Assembly (NCBI RefSeq): GCF_000024845.1
Contig: NC_013501.1
Location: forward strand, 2,956,874-3,020,873
From: Rhodothermus marinus DSM 4252
Lineage (GTDB): Bacteria > Bacteroidota > Rhodothermia > Rhodothermales > Rhodothermaceae
Reading direction: 5' to 3'
DNA length: 64,000 nt
Shown: in pieces, positions 18,439-28,406 of the stretch
How positions within the stretch are numbered: the stretch's first letter is position 1
How the letters are laid out: every line of letters starts with the position of its first letter
Translations under genes and position numbers: made by a program
The notes under the pieces: model-generated
The model's input: only the letters and a program-made list of their open reading frames with translations
Told to the model about the DNA's origin: nothing
Databases searched by the model: none

Positions 18439-19641
18439 CTATCCTTCCCCCACCGAAGCCTGCAGGTCGGGCTCGGGGAGGCCGTAGCCCACCACCAGCG
18501 CCATCAGCACCAGCGCGAGCGCCCCCAGCAGCGCATTGCTGAGATAGCCGTACTCTTTGTAGAGCCAGCCGGCCGCCACCCCGCTGATCCCGATGCCGAG
18601 CTGACCCAGCGCAATCGACAGACTCATGAGCGAGCCGCGCCGGGCACCCGGCACCAGCGCCGTCAACAGCGATTGCAGCGGACTCATCCGCATGCCCACC
18701 AGCGCCATCGCCAGCGCGAACAGCGTGTAAATGGTCAGGTCGCTCTGCATCAGCAACGGCGCGCCCGCCATCAGCACCGCCAGCCCCAGCGTGGCGCCCA
18801 CGATCAGCGGCTTGCGTCCGATGCGATCCGAGAGCCGCCCGGCCAGGGGTCCGGCCACCACGTTCGCCAGCCCGCCAATCAGAAAAAGCAGCGCCATCTC
18901 TTCGGTCCGGAAGCCCTGCGTGTGCTCCAGCCAGGTGGGCAGATAGATCAGAAAAAGCCCGATACTGAAGAACATCAAAAAGTACACGAGCGGCGAGCGT
19001 GAGGTCGTCGGGCGGCGGAGCAGTTCGTAGTAGCGCCGGAGCACATTGCGGAGCGAGAGCGGGAGCTCGGAACGCACGCCGGGCGGCTGCGGCACGTAAC
19101 GCCAGATCAGGAGCGTGGCCAGCGCCATCGTGAGCCCGAACGCCAGAAACGGCCAGCGAAAGTCGGCCAGTCCCGCCAGCAGCGTCCCGGCCGGGATCCC
19201 CACAATCTGGCCGAAGGCAACCCCGCTCATCACCCAGCCGTTGGCCCAGCCACGTCGCTCGTACGGGAAATAGTCGCCCACGTAGCTGACGGCCGCGCCG
19301 CTGAGCAGTCCCCCGGCCGCCCCGGCCAGCGCCCGCACCGCAAGCAGCGCGGCGAAGCTGTAGGCCACGCCGTGCAGCAGCAGCGCGCCCGTCATGGCCC
19401 CGCTCCCGACCAGCAGAATCAGCCGCCGCCCCAGCCGATCCGAGACGGGGCCGGCCACCAGCGCCATCACACTGAGCATCACGGCGTAGGCCGTGATCAG
19501 GCTACCCTGTTCCAGCTCGCCAATGCCCAGCGTGGCTCCGATACGCGGCAGGATCGGCGCCATGATGACCACCTGGCTGCTGGCCGAAAAGACCATCAGC
19601 CAGAGCGCCAGCAGAATGCGCCATTCCGATCGGGCCGCCAT
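18439..19641 (-). CDS. MFS transporter
   Basis: About 400 residues with some 12 hydrophobic segments. The MFS loop motif is visible as GPVSDRLGRRLILL between helices 2 and 3 and as GRLSDRIGRKPLIV in the second half. A general drug- or sugar-efflux type; substrate unknown. I start it at 19641 (MAARSEWRILLALWLM), directly before the first helix; in-frame start codons up to 19737 would add a charged tail with no visible purpose. Confidence 0.85.
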   Translation of the reverse strand: MAARSEWRILLALWLMVFSASSQVVIMAPILPRIGATLGIGELEQGSLITAYAVMLSVMALVAGPVSDRLGRRLILLVGSGAMTGALLLHGVAYSFAALLAVRALAGAAGGLLSGAAVSYVGDYFPYERRGWANGWVMSGVAFGQIVGIPAGTLLAGLADFRWPFLAFGLTMALATLLIWRYVPQPPGVRSELPLSLRNVLRRYYELLRRPTTSRSPLVYFLMFFSIGLFLIYLPTWLEHTQGFRTEEMALLFLIGGLANVVAGPLAGRLSDRIGRKPLIVGATLGLAVLMAGAPLLMQSDLTIYTLFALAMALVGMRMSPLQSLLTALVPGARRGSLMSLSIALGQLGIGISGVAAGWLYKEYGYLSNALLGALALVLMALVVGYGLPEPDLQASVGEG

Positions 19642-19778
19642 GCCGTCCTCTGCGGATTTTCCGGCCCAACCGGCGGCTTCGGATCTTTGTTTCGACAGGC
19701 GCTGACTCTTTCTGTCTATTGACAAAAACAGGACCACTTAACACGCCAGCGCTTTATGAAAAGGCCATCAAGCCCATC

Positions 19779-19835
19779 GTTAACGATTCGCTAATGCCCG
19801 GTTAATCGTCAGATAACGGGCGGCGGCTACCTTGG
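19779..19835 (+). promoter_or_regulatory. Pho-box-like array (four 11-bp units) and -10 of TonB receptor gene
   Basis: GTTAAC (19779), GCTAAT (19790), GTTAAT (19801) and GATAAC (19812) start at exactly 11-bp spacing. A -10/-7 element TACCTTGG lies at 19828-19835, 16 bp after the start of the last unit. Tandem 11-bp units just upstream of the -10, replacing a -35, are the architecture of PhoB/PhoP response-regulator sites. The same arrangement occurs before the plcP-like gene at 24568-24624. The predicted transcript start favours the ATG at 19868 over the in-frame TTG at 19832. Confidence 0.7.
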
Positions 19836-19867
19836 CCGGCGATCTTAAAAGGATACACCGTCGGCCT

Positions 19868-22741
19868 ATGCAACGCCTGTTTCTCCTGATTCCCGTGCTG
19901 CTGACGGCCTGGAGCGTCCGGGCTCAGACGGGGCGTATCGCCGGGACGGTAGTCGACGCCGAAACGGGCGAGCCGCTCATCGGCGTGAACGTGCTCGTGG
20001 TGGAAAAAGCCACCGGCGCCGCCACCGACCTCGAAGGCCGCTACGAAATCGCCGACCTCGCTCCCGGCACCTATACGCTGCGCTTCTCTTACGTGGGCTA
20101 CGTGAGCCAGACCGTGGAAAGCGTCGTGGTGCGGGCGGGCGAGGTCACGCGCATCGATCTGAGCCTGGCCCCGGAGTCGGTGGGTCTCGAGGCGGTCGTG
20201 GTCGAAGCGCGTCTGCTGCGCAACACCGAAGCGGCGCTGCTGGCCGCCCGTCAGCGGGCCGCCGCCGTCAGCGACGCGATCAGCGCCGAGATGATCGGCC
20301 GCACGGGCAGCAGCGACGCAGCCGACGCCATGGAGAAAGTAACGGGCGCCTCGGTGCTCGACGGCAAGTACGTGTACGTGCGCGGTCTGGGCGAGCGCTA
20401 CATGAACGCCCAGCTCAACGGACTGGACCTCCCCAGCGCCGACCCCGACCGCAAGGCCGTGCCGTTCGATCTGTTTCCCGCCGCCCTGCTCGACAACATC
20501 GTCACGGTCAAAACCTTCACGCCCGATCGCCCCGGCAGCTTCACCGGCGGCAGCGTCAACCTGAACACCCGGGCCTTTCCCGACGCCCTGTCGATCAGCT
20601 TTTCCACTTCGATCACCTACCGGCCGCAGGTGGTGGGCTTCGGCAATCCCATTCTGGCCGTGCCCGGCGCCGACCCGGGCGTCTGGGGCTTTCGGGCCGG
20701 CCGCCTCGACGTGCCCGCCCTGCTACAAACACACCGCTTCGAAAACATTCCGTCGCTCAGCCAGGCCATCCTGAACCCCGACAACGCCCGATTGCTGGAC
20801 CAGCTCTCCCGGGCGCTCACGCCTGAAATGGCTCCGGTCTACCGACGGGCGCCGCTCAACCAGAGCTACACGTTTTCGGCAGGCAATCGCTTCGACCTGG
20901 GCGGCGATCGACTGCTGGGCCTGGTGGCCAGCTTCAGCTATCGACGACAGGCCACCGCCTACGACGACGGCATCTGGGCCCGCTACCGGCTGACCGGCCG
21001 CGACGAAGCGGTCCTTTCCGAGGATAACTACCTGCACACCATCTCGGGCACCGACGAAGTCGTCTGGGGCAGCCTGATCAATGCGACGCTGCGCCCGCAT
21101 CGGCGGCACGAGCTGGGCTTCAGCTTCATTCAGAACCACAGCGCCGAAAGCACCGCCCGCTACCAGCGTGGTCGTTTTCTGTACAATCTGGAGCCCGACG
21201 ACATCTACGAAACGCGCGCGCTCATTTACATCGAACGTGACATCCGCACCTACCAGGTTCGGGGCAAGCATGCGCTCGGCGACGGACGCCAGCCCGCCAC
21301 GCTGAGCTGGGACTTTTCCACGACCGGCACCTGGCAGGACGAACCCGACCGCCGCTTTTTCACGAACCATTATCGCCTGCGCACCGGCAGCGACGGCTCC
21401 ATCGACACGCTCTACACGATCCGCGCCACCACGCCCCCACAGCGCTACTTCCGCTATCTGGAAGAATCGAACCAGGTGGGCAATCTGGCCCTGGAAGTAC
21501 CACTCACGACCGCCCTGCGCCTCAAGGTGGGCGGCTACCTGGAGCGCAAAACACGCACCTATCGCGAGCGCAAATTTGTGCTGCGCCAGCAGCGGGGCAA
21601 CCGCTACGACGGTGACCCCGAGGCTTACTTCGCGCCCGAAAACCTGGGCATCATTCAGGAACGCGACCTGAACGGTGACGGCGCACCCGATCTGTTCACC
21701 TTCGGCCTGTATCTGCAGGAAGACACGCAGCCTTCTTCCAACTACGACGGTACCCAGGACATCCGGGCCGGCTTTGCCATGATCGACTGGACGCCGCTGC
21801 GCCGGCTGCGGGTGATCACCGGGCTGCGCTACGAAACCACCGACATGGAAGTGGTCAGCCAGGACCCCACCAAAGACGTGGGGCGGCTCCGGAACGGCGA
21901 CTGGCTTCCGGCGGCTACGGTCATCTACCGGCTGGCCGACGACATGAACCTGCGGCTGGCCTACGGCCGCACGCTGGCCCGACCGGTCTTCCGTGAGCTG
22001 GCCCCCTACTCGACCTTCGAGTACGTGGGCGGCTACCTGCTCACCGGCAACCCCGACTTGCGCCGCACGCTCGTGGACAACTTCGACCTGCGCTGGGAAT
22101 GGTTCGTGCGTCCGGGCGAATTGCTCGCCGCCAGCCTGTTTTTCAAGTACTTCGACGATCCGATCGAAGTCGTCTACCAGCCCTTCGCGCCCAACGACAG
22201 CCCCGAGGTGCAGTACCGCAATGTCGAAGACGCCACACTTTACGGGCTGGAGCTGGAGCTGCGCAAGCGGCTGGACTTTCTGAGTGGCGCACTGCGGCAT
22301 TTTGAAATCGGCGGCAACGCGACGTTCATCCATTCGACCGTGCGCGTACCGGCCGAAGAGCTGCAATCGATCCGGGAGCTACGACCCGACGCACCGGCCA
22401 CGCGCTCACTGCAGGGGCAGTCGCCCTACCTCATCAACGCCGACCTGAGCTACGTGCACGAACAGCGCGGCACGACGGTCAGCCTCTACTACAACGTGTT
22501 CGGTCCCCGGCTGAAGGAAGTCGGACTCGGCGGCACGCCCGATACCTACGAGCGCCCGCGCCACACGCTGGACCTGAACATGAGCCAGCGGCTGATGACG
22601 AATCTGTCGCTCAAGCTGTCGGCGAAAAACCTGTTGAACGCCCGCTACCGCGTTTCCCACAGCTACAGAGGGCGGGAGTACGTGACGCGCGACTACGGCA
22701 GCGGGCGATCGTTCTCCATCGGGCTCAGCTACCAGTATTGA
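19868..22741 (+). CDS. TonB-dependent outer membrane receptor
   Basis: About 957 residues. Signal peptide (MQRLFLLIPVLLTAWSVRA), then a carboxypeptidase-regulatory-like domain (GRIAGTVVDAETGEPLIGVNV, residues ~20-105), a plug (DAMEKVTGASVLDGKYVYVRGLGERYMNAQLNG) and a 22-strand barrel ending in an aromatic residue (GLSYQY), as outer-membrane proteins do. It imports a large or scarce solute with TonB energy. The Pho-box-like promoter suggests a phosphate-related substrate, for example an organophosphate; this is inference. The secreted beta-helix protein downstream is probably its partner. TSS position supports this start. Confidence 0.88.
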   Translation: MQRLFLLIPVLLTAWSVRAQTGRIAGTVVDAETGEPLIGVNVLVVEKATGAATDLEGRYEIADLAPGTYTLRFSYVGYVSQTVESVVVRAGEVTRIDLSLAPESVGLEAVVVEARLLRNTEAALLAARQRAAAVSDAISAEMIGRTGSSDAADAMEKVTGASVLDGKYVYVRGLGERYMNAQLNGLDLPSADPDRKAVPFDLFPAALLDNIVTVKTFTPDRPGSFTGGSVNLNTRAFPDALSISFSTSITYRPQVVGFGNPILAVPGADPGVWGFRAGRLDVPALLQTHRFENIPSLSQAILNPDNARLLDQLSRALTPEMAPVYRRAPLNQSYTFSAGNRFDLGGDRLLGLVASFSYRRQATAYDDGIWARYRLTGRDEAVLSEDNYLHTISGTDEVVWGSLINATLRPHRRHELGFSFIQNHSAESTARYQRGRFLYNLEPDDIYETRALIYIERDIRTYQVRGKHALGDGRQPATLSWDFSTTGTWQDEPDRRFFTNHYRLRTGSDGSIDTLYTIRATTPPQRYFRYLEESNQVGNLALEVPLTTALRLKVGGYLERKTRTYRERKFVLRQQRGNRYDGDPEAYFAPENLGIIQERDLNGDGAPDLFTFGLYLQEDTQPSSNYDGTQDIRAGFAMIDWTPLRRLRVITGLRYETTDMEVVSQDPTKDVGRLRNGDWLPAATVIYRLADDMNLRLAYGRTLARPVFRELAPYSTFEYVGGYLLTGNPDLRRTLVDNFDLRWEWFVRPGELLAASLFFKYFDDPIEVVYQPFAPNDSPEVQYRNVEDATLYGLELELRKRLDFLSGALRHFEIGGNATFIHSTVRVPAEELQSIRELRPDAPATRSLQGQSPYLINADLSYVHEQRGTTVSLYYNVFGPRLKEVGLGGTPDTYERPRHTLDLNMSQRLMTNLSLKLSAKNLLNARYRVSHSYRGREYVTRDYGSGRSFSIGLSYQY

Positions 22742-22759
22742 AAACAACCCCTGCACATA

Positions 22760-22791
22760 GCGAAGCGGCGGCCCTCGGGTCGCCGCTTCGC
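22760..22791 (+). other. stable hairpin between TonB receptor and partner gene
   Basis: GCGAAGCGGCG (22760-22770) pairs perfectly with CGCCGCTTCGC (22781-22791) around a 10-base loop. No T-run follows, so it is more likely an mRNA-stabilising or attenuating element that sets the ratio of the two proteins than a full terminator. Confidence 0.5.
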
Positions 22792-22837
22792 ATAAGGAAC
22801 CACCGTTAACAAACCATAAACCCAGCGTAATCCCGCC

Positions 22838-24502
22838 ATGAACAAACGCCTTACCACCCTGCTGCTCCTGCTGGCGTGGCCGCTGTTGGGCCGCGCCCAG
22901 AACGTGGTGACCGTGACGGACGCCGACATCGGTCCGGGCGATCAGGTCACCTGGACCAGCGACAACGTCTACGTCCTCGACGGCTTCGTCTTCGTCGAAG
23001 AAGGCGCCACGCTCACCATCGAGCCCGGCACCATCGTCAAAGGCAAACCCGGCACCGGCGAAAACGCCTCTGCGCTCATCATTGCGCGCGGGGCCAAAAT
23101 CTACGCCGAGGGGACGCCCGACCGCCCCATCATCTTCACGGCCGAAGCCGATCCGCTCGACGGCAGCTTCGACGCCTCCATCCGCGGCCAGTGGGGCGGT
23201 CTGATCATCCTCGGGCGCGCCCGCACCAACCTCGCCAACGGCGAAGCCAACATCGAAGGCATTCCCTCTACCGAAACGCGCGCCCGCTACGGCTGCGTCC
23301 CGAACAACACCACCCCCACCACCGTCGATGACTGCGACGACAACGACAACTCCGGCGTGCTCCGCTACGTCTCGATCCGGCACGGCGGCTCCAACATCGG
23401 CGCCGACAACGAAATCAACGGCCTCACGCTCGGCGCCGTCGGCAGCGGCACGACGATCGAGTACGTGGAGGTTTTCGCCAACGAAGACGACGGCTTCGAA
23501 TTCTTCGGCGGCACCGTCAACACCCGCTACCTCGTAGCCGCCTTCTGCGGCGACGACGCCTTCGACTACGACGAGGGCTTCCGCGGCAAAGGCCAGTTCT
23601 GGTTTGCCATCATGCCTCCTGATGTGGGGAACCGCGCCGGCGAACACGACGGCGGCCGCGATCCCGAAGACGGCCAGCCCTACGCCATCCCCGTCATCTA
23701 CAACGTGACCTACATCGGCTCGGGCGCCGCTTCCGGCAACGCCGATAACAACACGTTCGTCTTCCGCGACAACGCCGGCGGCAAGTACTTCAACTCCATC
23801 TTCACCGACTTCGGCAACATCGGCGTTCAGGTGGAAGACGTCGATGGCGTGGACGTGGACAGCCGCCAGCGGCTGGAGCAGGGCGATCTGGTGCTGGCCC
23901 ACAACATCTGGTGGGGCTTCGGAGCCGGCAACGAGCTGGCCGACTTTGCGCCCCAGGATTTCGTGCAGCAGCACCTGCAGGCCAACAACAACTTCGTCGA
24001 AGACCCCATGCTGCGCGGCATCAGCCGCGAGGCGGACGGTGGTCTGGATCCGCGGCCGGCCCCGAACTCCCCGGCGCTGACGCGCCCGCGCGCACCCTAT
24101 CCCGAAAACGACGACTTCTTCACGCCGGTGGAGTACATCGGCGCCTTCGGACCGGACGAGCTCTGGATCAAGGGCTGGACCAAACTCGCCCAACTCGGCA
24201 TTCTGACGGCGCTGGAGCATGACGCCCGGACGATTCCGGCCGCCGTGGCCCTGCAGGCCGGCTACCCGAATCCGTTCCGGTCCGCCACGACGCTTACGTT
24301 CGCGCTGGACCGGGCGCAACGGGTGCGGCTGGCCGTCTACGACCTGCTCGGCCGCGAAGTGGCCCGGCTGGTCGAAGGTGTCCGCCCGGCCGGCACCTAC
24401 CGGTTTACCCTTGAGGGCGCCCGCCTGGCGGCCGGCACCTATCTGGTTCGCCTCGAAACCGAGTCGGGCGTGCAGGTCCGGACGCTGACGCGCCTGCCCT
24501 GA
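22838..24502 (+). CDS. secreted beta-helix-like protein with T9SS C-terminal domain
   Basis: 554 residues. Signal peptide (MNKRLTTLLLLLAWPLLGRAQ), then a repetitive Gly/Asn/Asp-rich region (TLTIEPGTIVKG, GQWGGLIILGRA, GVLRYVSIRHGGSNIG, NEINGLTLGAVGSG, EYVEVFANEDDGFEFFGGTVNTRYL) typical of right-handed beta-helix surface proteins. The last ~80 residues (GYPNPFRSATTLTFAL, YDLLGREVARL, AGTYLVRLETESG) are a type IX secretion sorting domain. It is likely exported to the cell surface and works with the TonB receptor upstream. No catalytic site is recognised. Confidence 0.82.
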   Translation: MNKRLTTLLLLLAWPLLGRAQNVVTVTDADIGPGDQVTWTSDNVYVLDGFVFVEEGATLTIEPGTIVKGKPGTGENASALIIARGAKIYAEGTPDRPIIFTAEADPLDGSFDASIRGQWGGLIILGRARTNLANGEANIEGIPSTETRARYGCVPNNTTPTTVDDCDDNDNSGVLRYVSIRHGGSNIGADNEINGLTLGAVGSGTTIEYVEVFANEDDGFEFFGGTVNTRYLVAAFCGDDAFDYDEGFRGKGQFWFAIMPPDVGNRAGEHDGGRDPEDGQPYAIPVIYNVTYIGSGAASGNADNNTFVFRDNAGGKYFNSIFTDFGNIGVQVEDVDGVDVDSRQRLEQGDLVLAHNIWWGFGAGNELADFAPQDFVQQHLQANNNFVEDPMLRGISREADGGLDPRPAPNSPALTRPRAPYPENDDFFTPVEYIGAFGPDELWIKGWTKLAQLGILTALEHDARTIPAAVALQAGYPNPFRSATTLTFALDRAQRVRLAVYDLLGREVARLVEGVRPAGTYRFTLEGARLAAGTYLVRLETESGVQVRTLTRLP

Positions 24503-24524
24503 CGCAGCAAGCCTGCGCAGCGGA

Positions 24525-24557
24525 GGGGAGCAGAAAACCTGCTCCCCTTTTCTTTTT
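24525..24557 (+). terminator. intrinsic terminator after the TonB receptor/beta-helix operon
   Basis: GGGGAGCAG (24525-24533) and CTGCTCCCC (24539-24547) form a perfect 9-bp stem with a 5-base loop, followed by TTTTCTTTTT. It separates the receptor operon from the Pho-box of the plcP-like gene. Confidence 0.92.
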
Positions 24558-24567
24558 GTTTTTGAAA

Positions 24568-24624
24568 GACAACGGTTTGCTAACCCAGCGCTAATCGTTC
24601 GCTAACGGGCAATCTGTAAACTCC
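24568..24624 (+). promoter_or_regulatory. Pho-box-like array (four 11-bp units) and -10 of plcP-like gene
   Basis: GACAAC (24568), GCTAAC (24579), GCTAAT (24590) and GCTAAC (24601) start at exactly 11-bp spacing. TAAACTCC begins at 24617, again 16 bp after the start of the last unit, just as in the array at 19779. The predicted transcript start near 24630 supports the ATG at 24655 rather than the ATG at 24631. Confidence 0.7.
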
Positions 24625-24654
24625 GGATGGATGCTGAGCTTCCGTCCGCCGGCC

Positions 24655-25473
24655 ATGCGCACCGTCAACTACTTCCGCACGATCTGGATTTCCGACGTCC
24701 ACCTGGGCACGCGGGCCAGCCGCGCCGACTTTCTCTACGACTTTCTGCGCCACAACGAAGCCGACTACCTCTACCTGGTGGGCGACATCTTCGACGGCTG
24801 GGCGCTGCAGCGCAACTGGTACTGGGATCCCTTCCACAACGGCGTACTCCAGCAGATCCTGCGCAAGGCCCGCAAGGGCACGCACGTCGTCTACATTCCG
24901 GGCAACCACGACGAATTTGCCCGCCAGTACTACGGGCTGAAGCTCGATGAGATCGTGGTGCGGCCCAGTGCCCTGCATACGACCGTGGACGGCCGCCAGC
25001 TCCTGGTGCTGCACGGCGACGAGTTCGACGGCATCATTCGCTACGCGCCCTGGCTGTCGCACCTCGGCGCCCGCGCCTACGAGCTGGTGCTCGTGCTCAA
25101 CCGCTGGTACAACCACGTGCGCCGGCGGCTGGGCCTTTCGTACTGGTCGCTCTCGGCCTACCTGAAGTACCGCACCAAACGGGCGGTCCAGTACATCGCC
25201 GACTTCGAACGGGCGGTGGTGACCGAGGCCCGCAAGCACGAGGTCGAGGGCGTCGTCTGCGGCCACATTCACCATGCCGAGCTGCGCGAAATCGGCGACA
25301 TTCTCTACGCCAACACGGGCGACTGGGTGGAAAGCTGCACGGCCCTGGTGGAGCACTTCGACGGACGGCTGGAAATCCTGCACTGGACGCCCGCCGAGGT
25401 GTTTCTGAATCCGTCCGGCGACGGCCGGCTCCCGGACGAACTCCCCGCCCTGAGCGTGCCCGCCCGGTCATGA
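24655..25473 (+). CDS. plcP: PlcP-like phospholipase C (metallophosphoesterase)
   Basis: About 272 residues of the calcineurin-like phosphoesterase fold with all metal motifs: SDVHLG, GDIFDGW, GNHDE, HGDEFD and GHIHHA. It resembles LpxH, but the extra motifs (RNWYWDPFHN, RRRLGLSYWSLSAYLK, NTGDWVESCTALVEHF) and its size match my memory of PlcP, the phosphate-starvation phospholipase of alphaproteobacteria that hydrolyses phospholipids to diacylglycerol. No LpxH-like gene context (lpx genes) is present. It is paired with a glycosyltransferase by an ATGA overlap and sits behind a Pho-box-like array, which supports PlcP over LpxH. Confidence 0.75.
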   Translation: MRTVNYFRTIWISDVHLGTRASRADFLYDFLRHNEADYLYLVGDIFDGWALQRNWYWDPFHNGVLQQILRKARKGTHVVYIPGNHDEFARQYYGLKLDEIVVRPSALHTTVDGRQLLVLHGDEFDGIIRYAPWLSHLGARAYELVLVLNRWYNHVRRRLGLSYWSLSAYLKYRTKRAVQYIADFERAVVTEARKHEVEGVVCGHIHHAELREIGDILYANTGDWVESCTALVEHFDGRLEILHWTPAEVFLNPSGDGRLPDELPALSVPARS

Positions 25474-26585
25474 GGGACCGTCCGCTCCGGGTGTTGTTCG
25501 TGGTGCAGGGCGAAGGCCGCGGCCACCTGACCCAGGCGCTGACGCTGCGCCGCTGGCTGACCGACGCCGGCCACGAAGTGGCGGCCGTGCTGGTAGGACG
25601 AAGCCAGGAGCGCCGGCTGCCCGGGTTCTTTCTGGAAAAAATCCAGACGCCCGTCCACGAATTTGCCTCGCCCAACTTCGCCTTCGATCGACGCTTTCGG
25701 GGCATTCGGCCCGGCCGCACCGTCGTCCGCAACCTGCTGCACCTTCCGGAATTTCAGCGAAGCCTGCACCGACTGCACGAAGCCGTTCAGGACGTGGCGC
25801 CCGATCTCGTCGTCAATTTCTACGAAGTGCTGATCGGCCTGCTCTATCGCCGGGCAAAGCTTCAACCGCCGCTGGTCTGCATCGCCCACCAGTACTTTTT
25901 TCTGCATCCGGACTATCCTTTTCCCCCGGGCTATCCGCTGCAGCGCCGGCTGGTCCGGCTGTTCACGCGGCTGACGGCCCCACCGGGTGCCCGCAAGCTG
26001 GCGCTGTCGTTCTACGAAGCGCCCGATCTGCCCGAACGCCAGCTCTCCGTCGTGCCGCCGCTGCTGCGCCCCGAGCTGTTCCAGCTTCCGCTGGATCGGA
26101 CCGAAAACTTCCTGCTGGTCTATCTGCTCAACCGGGGCTACGCCGACGACCTGATCCGCTGGCACACCCGCCATCCCGAAATCGGCCTGCACGTCTTCTG
26201 GGACAATACGGAGCGGCCCGACGGCTGGTCGCCCCGCCCCGGCCTGGTCTTTCACCACCTGAACGACCGACTTTTTCTGGAAAAAATGGCCCGCTGTCGC
26301 GGCGTGGTCACGACGGCCGGCTTCGAGACCGTGGCCGAGGCGCTCTACCTGGGCAAACCCGTGCTGATGGTGCCCGTCGAAGGACATTTCGAGCAGCGCT
26401 GCAACGCCTACGACGCCGAACGCCTCGGTGCGGGCATCTGGAGCCCCCGCTTCGAGCTGGACCGACTGCTGGCGTTTCTGCCACACTACCGGAGTCCTTC
26501 GGCCGCCTTTCGTCGCTGGGTGGCACAGGCCCCCATGAAAATTCTTCCCCACCTGACGGCCTCCGCCCTGCGGCCGGTTGCGTAA
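25470..26585 (+). CDS. GT28/GT1-like glycosyltransferase, likely diacylglycerol glucosyl/galactosyltransferase
   Basis: 371 residues. GEGRGHLTQALTL near the N-terminus and TTAGFETVAEALYLGKPVLMVP with EGHFEQRCNA near the C-terminus are the sugar-nucleotide-binding pattern of GT-B enzymes such as MurG and the MJ1255/VC2487 group. Its ATG overlaps the upstream TGA (ATGA), so it is probably translated with the PlcP-like enzyme. In the known system a glycosyltransferase adds sugar to the diacylglycerol that PlcP makes; that one (Agt) belongs to another family, so the pairing here is inferred. Confidence 0.7.
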   Translation: MRDRPLRVLFVVQGEGRGHLTQALTLRRWLTDAGHEVAAVLVGRSQERRLPGFFLEKIQTPVHEFASPNFAFDRRFRGIRPGRTVVRNLLHLPEFQRSLHRLHEAVQDVAPDLVVNFYEVLIGLLYRRAKLQPPLVCIAHQYFFLHPDYPFPPGYPLQRRLVRLFTRLTAPPGARKLALSFYEAPDLPERQLSVVPPLLRPELFQLPLDRTENFLLVYLLNRGYADDLIRWHTRHPEIGLHVFWDNTERPDGWSPRPGLVFHHLNDRLFLEKMARCRGVVTTAGFETVAEALYLGKPVLMVPVEGHFEQRCNAYDAERLGAGIWSPRFELDRLLAFLPHYRSPSAAFRRWVAQAPMKILPHLTASALRPVA

Positions 26586-26642: not shown

Positions 26643-28406
26643 ATGCGCAAATACCGGTGGGTTCGCCGCCCCCTGCCCGATCCGAGCGCCGTGGCCACGC
26701 TGATGGCGGCGGCGCGCTACCTGCCCGAGCCGCTGGCCCGCGTGCTGGTGGCCCGGGGGATCACCACGGTGGAGGCGGCGCGTGCCTTCTTCCGGCCGGA
26801 GCTCGACCAGCTCCATGATCCGTTTCTGATGGCCGACATGGAAGCGGCCGCCCGGCGCCTGGCCCGCGCCATCGAAGACCGGGAGCAGGTGCTCGTCTAC
26901 GGCGACTACGACGTGGACGGCACGACGGCCACGGCGCTGGTGACCTCCTTTCTGAAGGAACGGGGCGTGCCCGTCCGCTACTTCGTGCCCGATCGCTTCC
27001 GGCACGGCTACGGTCTCACGCAAAAGGCACTCGAAGAAGCGCTGGAAGCCGGCACCCGGCTGCTCATCGCGCTGGACTGTGGCATCACGGCCGCCGAAGA
27101 GGCGGCCTACGCCCGCGCGCGCGGCGTCGATCTGATCATCTGCGACCACCACACGGCCGGCGCCACGCTGCCCGAGGCGGTGGCCGTGCTCGATCCCAAG
27201 CGCCCGGACTGTCCCTACCCCTTCCCCGAGCTTTCAGGCTGCGCGGTGGCCTTCAAGCTGGTACAGGCCACGCTCCAGGTGCTGGGCGAGTCGCCCGAGG
27301 CGGCCTACCGGTACCTCGATCTGGTGGCGCTCTCGACGGCGGCCGACATCGTGCCGCTGACCGGCGAAAACCGCATCCTCATGGCCGAAGGGCTGCGCCA
27401 CCTGCGCCGGAGTACGCGGCCAGGCCTGCAGCAATTGGCCGCCCGCGCCCGCTGGCCCCTGGAAACGCTCACCATGCACGGGATCGTGTTCGGGCTGGCG
27501 CCCCGCATCAACGCGGCCGGACGGCTGGGCGACGCCAACCGGGCCGTGGCGCTGCTCCTGGCCGAAGACGCCGCCACGGCCGACAAGCTGGCCGCCGAGC
27601 TGGACGCGGCCAACCGCGAGCGCCAGCAGATCGACCGCCGGACGCTCGAAGAAGCCATCGTCCAGGCCGAACGCCAGATTACGGCCCGCGACGACCGCCA
27701 CGCGCTCGTGCTCTATCACCCCGACTGGCACCTGGGCGTCATCGGGATCGTGGCCAGCCGCATCGTCGAGCGCTTCTACCGTCCCACCATCCTGCTCTGC
27801 GCCGTCGATTCCATTCTCAAAGGCTCGGCCCGGTCCATTGCCGGGATCAACATCTACGAGGCGCTGCGCGACTGCGAGGACCTGCTGCTGCAATTCGGCG
27901 GCCACACCTACGCGGCCGGTCTGGCCCTGGAGGAAAACCGGCTCGAGGCCTTCCGCGAGCGCTTCAACGAGGCGGTGGGCGCCCGGATGACGCCCGAGCT
28001 GCTCGTCCCCCGCCTGGAGATCGACGCACTGCTCGACCTGCACACGCTCGACGAGCGTTTCTGGCGCCTGCTCCAGCGCTTCGGGCCGCACGGCCCCGAA
28101 AATGAAGAGCCCCTGTTCATGGCCCGCGACCTGGAAGTGGTGGGCGAGCCGAAACTGGTCGGCGGCGAGGGCAAACACCTGAAGTTCTACGTGCGCCAGC
28201 GCGCACATCCCGACGACCCGCCCTGCGAGGTGATCGGCTTCGGAAAGGAACGCCTGCTTCCGGCCGTGCAGCACAGCCGCCGCATGGGCCAGCCGCTTGC
28301 CCTGGCCTTCACGCTTCAGGAGAACACCTGGCAGGGCCAGACGCGCCTCCAGCTCCGATTGCGCGACCTGAAGCTGCAACGCGTCGAGACCCCCGTCGGG
28401 CAATAA
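26643..28406 (+). CDS. recJ: single-stranded-DNA-specific 5'-3' exonuclease RecJ
   Basis: 587 residues of the DHH phosphoesterase family. YGDYDVDGTTA (motif I), DCGITAAEEAAYA, the DHH motif in IICDHHTAG (Asp168) and DIVPLTGENR are all intact; the C-terminal DHHA1 domain (KGSARSIAGINIYEALRDC ... FGGHTYAAGLALE) follows and a short OB-like tail ends it. RecJ trims single strands during recombinational and mismatch repair in the cytoplasm. A near-perfect promoter lies just upstream. Confidence 0.95.
   Translation: MRKYRWVRRPLPDPSAVATLMAAARYLPEPLARVLVARGITTVEAARAFFRPELDQLHDPFLMADMEAAARRLARAIEDREQVLVYGDYDVDGTTATALVTSFLKERGVPVRYFVPDRFRHGYGLTQKALEEALEAGTRLLIALDCGITAAEEAAYARARGVDLIICDHHTAGATLPEAVAVLDPKRPDCPYPFPELSGCAVAFKLVQATLQVLGESPEAAYRYLDLVALSTAADIVPLTGENRILMAEGLRHLRRSTRPGLQQLAARARWPLETLTMHGIVFGLAPRINAAGRLGDANRAVALLLAEDAATADKLAAELDAANRERQQIDRRTLEEAIVQAERQITARDDRHALVLYHPDWHLGVIGIVASRIVERFYRPTILLCAVDSILKGSARSIAGINIYEALRDCEDLLLQFGGHTYAAGLALEENRLEAFRERFNEAVGARMTPELLVPRLEIDALLDLHTLDERFWRLLQRFGPHGPENEEPLFMARDLEVVGEPKLVGGEGKHLKFYVRQRAHPDDPPCEVIGFGKERLLPAVQHSRRMGQPLALAFTLQENTWQGQTRLQLRLRDLKLQRVETPVGQ

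Follow-up and report, generated by a model that had tools for sequence, protein, structure and literature searches.

In alphaproteobacteria, PlcP degrades phospholipids to diacylglycerol, which is then glycosylated by Agt, a glycosyltransferase (GT) of family GT4. Ocean and soil surveys rely on PlcP as their marker gene of lipid remodelling. PlcP-Agt systems are represented by those of Sinorhizobium, Phaeobacter and SAR11 and by the PA3219-PA3218 pair of Pseudomonas aeruginosa. Upon deletion of plcP, P. aeruginosa had no MGDG under low phosphate, and the characterised partner of its PlcP acts on diacylglycerol (PMC8528852). In Flavobacterium johnsoniae, a phoBR/PUSIV cluster comprising the GT Fjoh_0541 (pf04101), phoBR, a TBDT and FII is strongly induced by phosphate depletion, as is the plcP gene Fjoh_4577, and both Fjoh_4577 and Fjoh_0541 were classed as "lipid remodelling" (PMC8115612). 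Another phosphate-starved flavobacterium, Dokdonia MED134, also induces plcP; however, aminolipids were reported instead of glycolipids (PMC4796936). Thus, the idea of phosphate-starvation lipid remodelling in Bacteroidota is already published, while we found no characterisation of the GT partner of PlcP in Bacteroidota or Rhodothermota in the literature searched.

Here, we describe a plcP-GT pair of Rhodothermus marinus, whose genome comprises 3,386,737 bases in two contigs. Positions refer to the window, that is, the whole stretch of 64,000 nucleotides that was analysed. The pair resembles the PlcP-Agt systems in its orthologous-looking PlcP, in the order of plcP and GT with an ATGA overlap, and in the Pho-type box located upstream. 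It differs from them in the GT, which is a PF13528 UGT/MurG-like GT-B enzyme while Agt1 belongs to GT4, and in the box itself, which reads [GC]NTAA[CT] every 11 bp as compared to CTGTCAT-N4-CTGTCAT. With the F. johnsoniae set, the locus shares PlcP, a non-GT4 GT, a TonB receptor, and an FII-related beta-helix protein; however, plcP of F. johnsoniae is an orphan gene, and in R. marinus, phoBR does not adjoin the plcP-GT pair. We consider it likely that the pair is a two-gene operon under PhoB control that serves to replace phospholipids and encodes PlcP and a diacylglycerol glycosyltransferase.

Organization of the locus

Features of the plcP-GT locus and the neighbouring operon in the window
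Feature	Position	Strand	Description
Second Pho-box array	19779..19817	+	5′ of the TonB-dependent receptor gene
TonB-dependent receptor (TBDR), neighbouring Pho operon	19868..22741	+	Homologue in a phoBR cluster
Beta-helix-like T9SS-secreted protein	22838..24502	+	Related to the FII-type protein adjoining phoBR in Flavobacteriaceae-like genomes
Intrinsic-terminator-like hairpin	24522..24550	+	Separates the plcP operon from the beta-helix gene
Pho-box array	24568..24606	+	Four 11-bp-spaced units, ~50-90 bp 5′ of the plcP start
plcP (P0001)	24655..25473	+	272 aa, metallophosphoesterase of the cytoplasmic type; predicted to convert phospholipid to diacylglycerol as a phospholipase C
GT-B glycosyltransferase (P0002)	25470..26585	+	371 aa, PF13528; predicted UDP-sugar:diacylglycerol glycosyltransferase

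The original prediction described a PlcP-like gene and a GT gene that overlap by ATGA, and both reading frames are indeed present, with the four-base overlap at 25470-25473. An alternative in-frame ATG at 24631 is a possible start of plcP, while homologues favour the one at 24655. The strong hairpin stands between the beta-helix gene and the pair, and thus plcP and the GT gene probably form their own transcription unit. recJ begins at 26643, 3′ of the pair.

The TonB receptor and the T9SS beta-helix protein are encoded under their own Pho-box array (19779-24502). This operon looks like a relative, in a thermophile, of the TBDT/FII operon adjoining phoBR in Flavobacterium, and the plcP-GT28-phoR-phoB-TBDR-beta-helix cluster of genome G084 contains homologues of P0003 and P0004. 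Divergent from the TonB receptor gene across its array lies an MFS transporter gene (18439-19737, minus strand); a related MFS gene occupies the equivalent position in genomes G026 and G092.

A Pho-type repeat array precedes plcP

The array upstream of plcP reads GACAAC-N5-GCTAAC-N5-GCTAAT-N5-GCTAAC. The genome contains a single copy of the 15-base core of this array, GCTAA-N6-GCTAA-N6-GCTAA, as compared to 0.0014 copies expected from base composition. Arrays of the general form found in this genome, [GC]NTAA[CT] every 11 bp, also precede pstSCAB-phoU, an alkaline phosphatase gene with a T9SS tail, and the TonB receptor gene of the TBDR/beta-helix operon. In related genomes, the array is present 5′ of plcP in six cases (G092, G026, G081, G131, Roseithermus, and a Rhodothermia MAG) and 5′ of the TBDR gene in G092 and G143. 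Because it is common to pstSCAB-phoU, the alkaline phosphatase gene, the TBDR operon and the plcP genes of relatives, we regard the array as very probably a Pho box, in agreement with the original prediction.

This assignment was examined with an array score, in which the plcP upstream region exceeded all 1000 of 1000 dinucleotide shuffles. Five control promoters (those of the lpxH-like gene, recJ, feoB, a peptidase gene and the GT paralogue) were negative, as none beat all of the shuffles. Nearly all plcP and TBDR upstream regions from the related genomes also outscored 1000 dinucleotide shuffles; since the score was built from R. marinus sites and two relatives, the independent part of the test consists of pstS and the remaining relatives. 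Genome-wide pattern searches allowing at most one mismatch returned 10 matches to the array pattern and 5 to a reversed control pattern. Single weak matches should therefore not be trusted; the argument is carried by the strong sites, by the genes that they precede, and by the relatives. A few other matches in the genome have no obvious phosphate link. Two further good ones, at G000:C1:1961611-1961638 and G000:C1:2764092-2764130, may be additional Pho sites or chance occurrences; one of them directly precedes the gene of a hybrid histidine kinase, while the gene beside the other has no family match.

P0001 groups with PlcP and not with LpxH

Family searches identified a Metallophos domain in P0001. 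The protein is 56% identical over 234 aa to P. aeruginosa WP_003091510, which was taken as PlcP by synteny and annotation and not by the PA3219 locus tag: its gene lies directly 5′ of a GT4 gene, which it overlaps by 4 bp, the same layout as in PAO1 plcP-agt1 (PA3219-PA3218). In a tree of 34 rows with long LpxH branches, the PlcP rows, with P0001 in the clade of the characterised PlcP, were split from the LpxH rows with a support of 100/99. P0001 has a two-metal calcineurin-like active site with the metal-ligand motifs DxH, GD, GNHD, HGD, and GHxH. Residues D14, H16, D44, N84, H120, H204, and H206 are invariant in the PlcP and LpxH rows of the alignment, while WSLSxYLK and GDWVESCTAL are found in the PlcP rows only and are absent from the LpxH rows. 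With LpxH models, P0001 reached 43.9 bits where the NCBIfam cut-off is 190.35 and 51.5 bits where the cut-off is 134, far too low in both cases. By these sequence comparisons, P0001 is PlcP and not LpxH, as had been proposed, and it is predicted to act as a phospholipase.

The lipid A pathway points in the same direction. Searches detected no LpxC in the R. marinus genome, and no LpxB either there or in five other Rhodothermales tested (the other Rhodothermus and four order-mates); LpxB is present in two more distant relatives. With both LpxC and LpxB missing, the substrate of LpxH should therefore not exist in R. marinus. In addition, the genome carries a separate LpxH-like gene (G000:C1:293024-293632), and LpxH-like genes were also found in order-mates. 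The original prediction depended on P0001 not being the sole LpxH of its genome, and on this point it survives, as P0001 lies outside LpxH, a second LpxH-like gene exists, and LpxC and LpxB are missing. The lipid A enzyme annotation carried by many relatives is misleading for organisms without lipid A.

P0002 is a PF13528 protein with a predicted GT-B fold

P0002 gives a full-length match to PF13528 (Glyco_trans_1_3; residues 7-337), with 137.2 bits as compared to a cut-off of 25. It is also TIGR00661-like and matches PF13439, in both cases with scores under the respective cut-off, while its match to PF04101 (GT28_C) is weak and local, covering 52 residues. The expectation that the GT belongs to a family other than that of the GT4 Agt was borne out, since P0002 is a PF13528 protein and had no significant BLAST match to P. 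aeruginosa Agt1; an assignment to GT4 Agt, which would correspond to PF13439 together with PF00534/PF13692, was rejected. Membership in the GT28 UgtP/MGD1 group was rejected as well: P0002 shares the GT-B fold and the predicted role with these diacylglycerol glycosyltransferases, but it has no match to the MGDG-synthase N-domain, and its GT28_C match is only local.

The AlphaFold2 model of P0002 (pLDDT 95, pTM 0.93) adopts a GT-B fold. Among solved structures, Ugt51, a sterol glucosyltransferase of yeast, aligned best (Z 26.1, rmsd 3.7, 337 residues), and good matches were also obtained with UGTs and with MurG (Z 24.5). The conserved motifs GEGRGH and GHxEQxCNA fall at positions that we take to be the acceptor and donor sites of UGT/MurG enzymes, a placement that makes a UDP-sugar the likely donor. 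No close relative of P0002 with a solved structure was found in the PDB, where a processive diacylglycerol glucosyltransferase matched only at E 0.5, and no characterised PF13528 enzyme was found in the literature searched or as a close PDB sequence match. The lipid acceptor is therefore a guess from context, with diacylglycerol suggested by the neighbouring plcP. A fold match alone shows no substrate.

The only other strong PF13528 protein found in the R. marinus genome is a paralogous GT (L051 4245-5378; G000:C1 about 492744-493877, minus strand), whose gene adjoins a serine-palmitoyltransferase-like gene, an arrangement kept in another Rhodothermus. Given this setting, the paralogue is possibly a sphingolipid or sulfonolipid glycosyltransferase.

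The plcP-GT pairing is widespread in the phylum

A GT of the P0002 superfamily lies directly 3′ of plcP on the same strand for 43 of the 54 strong PlcP matches in 148 genomes of the phylum. Conversely, plcP was found directly 5′ in 44 of the best 80 GT loci of the named genome collection, in which some contigs end early. The GT loci with plcP upstream were found in Cytophagia, Chitinophagia, Sphingobacteriia, Bacteroidia, and Rhodothermia, and the two genes overlap by a few bases in several genomes. Because the same pairing is common in mesophilic Bacteroidota and Rhodothermota, a thermophile-specific or R. marinus-specific pathway was rejected, and the suggestion of an independent version in a thermophile is not supported; independence is further undercut by the earlier listing of F. 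johnsoniae plcP and a GT28-type gene as phosphate-starvation-induced (PMC8115612). Gut Bacteroidales also carry the pair, and phosphate starvation is no obvious pressure there, which weighs against a role in phosphate-starvation remodelling.

Among the PlcP-linked PF13528 GTs, two subfamilies can be told apart, namely, A (P0002-like) and B. GTs without plcP fall between them in the tree, yet the two are clearly related (hhalign probability 99.9%). P0002 shares with subfamily B the Pfam family and the position directly after plcP, but it is only ~25% identical and occupies a separate branch of the GT tree. A third type is a GT28-type GT (motif PLNWGLGHATRCIPII) located beside phoBR in Flavobacteriaceae-like genomes (L195 5670-13421; L187, L188, L191), and it is only remotely related to P0002 (hhalign probability 53%). 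In one genome, G084, the GT28-type gene directly follows plcP, in the order plcP, GT28-type GT, phoR, phoB, TBDR, and beta-helix; the F. johnsoniae cluster induced by phosphate starvation shares this layout for its GT, phoBR, TBDT, and FII genes (PMC8115612). The phoBR-linked GTs of similar genomes, used as a proxy, belong to another subfamily than P0002, and a direct correspondence between P0002 and Fjoh_0541 is therefore unsupported.

Within Rhodothermus, the beta-helix gene of G046 and G054 (loci L176 and L177) runs directly into recJ, and the region corresponding to 24506-26564, comprising the array, plcP, and the GT gene, is absent as one block. Because G092, which belongs to another family, retains the complete order TBDR, beta-helix, plcP, GT, and recJ, loss in G046 and G054 is the simpler reading.

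Proposed pathway and alternative explanations

In the proposed pathway, a PhoB-type regulator would bind the array of 11-bp repeats when phosphate is scarce, and the bound array would switch on plcP and the GT gene together. PlcP, as a soluble two-metal phosphoesterase, would take the phosphate head group off PG and PE to leave diacylglycerol, and the phosphate-bearing head groups freed in this way could be reused. P0002, as a UGT/MurG-type GT-B enzyme, would then glycosylate the diacylglycerol, with a UDP-sugar as donor, generating a phosphate-free glycolipid. Membrane lipids of R. marinus are reported to be mainly PG and PE, with minor amounts of glycolipids (PMC3035238), a composition that fits growth with enough phosphate.

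An unlikely alternative to this pathway is that PlcP and the GT are both Pho-regulated but do not catalyze consecutive steps, with the GT acting on another lipid such as a sphingoid base, ceramide, capnine-type sulfonolipid, or polyprenol. The PF13528 paralogue beside the serine-palmitoyltransferase-like gene shows that the family can occupy sphingolipid-type loci, and together with the aminolipids of starved Dokdonia (PMC4796936), it makes an acceptor other than diacylglycerol possible. In G143, moreover, the GT gene is Pho-linked without an adjoining plcP: it follows the TBDR/beta-helix pair, while plcP lies elsewhere and has no array. What argues for diacylglycerol is the very frequent and close pairing with a gene predicted to produce it, which in several genomes goes as far as an overlap of a few bases, and the activity of the P. 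aeruginosa partner on this lipid (PMC8528852).

The regulatory part of the proposal has its own competitor, in which the pair belongs to constitutive housekeeping lipid metabolism and the array serves another OmpR-family regulator. Repeats spaced by 11 bp are typical of OmpR/PhoB-family regulators in general, the motif is also found 5′ of the hybrid histidine kinase gene and close to an uncharacterised one, and the PhoB protein of the R. marinus genome was not identified. We nevertheless regard this as quite improbable, given the arrays 5′ of pstSCAB-phoU and the alkaline phosphatase gene and 5′ of the TBDR/beta-helix operon, a type that is induced by phosphate starvation elsewhere (PMC8115612). 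Even less credible, to the point of being nearly negligible, is that the first gene encodes LpxH of lipid A synthesis, with the GT acting in an envelope glycolipid pathway. Relatives of P0001 are automatically annotated as UDP-2,3-diacylglucosamine diphosphatase, and its closest solved folds are those of LpxH; however, the 43.9 bits reached with a model that requires 190, the split in the tree, the missing LpxC and LpxB, and the Pho array 5′ of the gene all speak for PlcP. The LpxH reading is thus refuted for R. marinus unless an unrecognised lipid A pathway exists.

Replacement of phospholipids by PlcP and a diacylglycerol glycosyltransferase thus remains the preferred reading for R. marinus. 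Its extension to the wider group, namely, that Bacteroidota and Rhodothermota have a separate solution for lipid replacement in which PlcP was joined repeatedly with UGT/MurG-like GT-Bs (the two PF13528 subfamilies and the GT28-type subfamily, in place of the GT4 Agt) and that PF13528 constitutes a new family of diacylglycerol glycosyltransferases, seems to us evenly balanced. At the R. marinus locus, a single candidate enzyme lies behind a predicted Pho box in a genetically tractable thermophile, which makes the Bacteroidota version of the pathway directly testable. If the extended reading is true, such glycolipids could also matter for the outer membrane of Rhodothermales, which apparently are without lipid A. 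As a side observation, the LpxH-like enzyme that remains in this seemingly lipid A-free lineage must serve another role.
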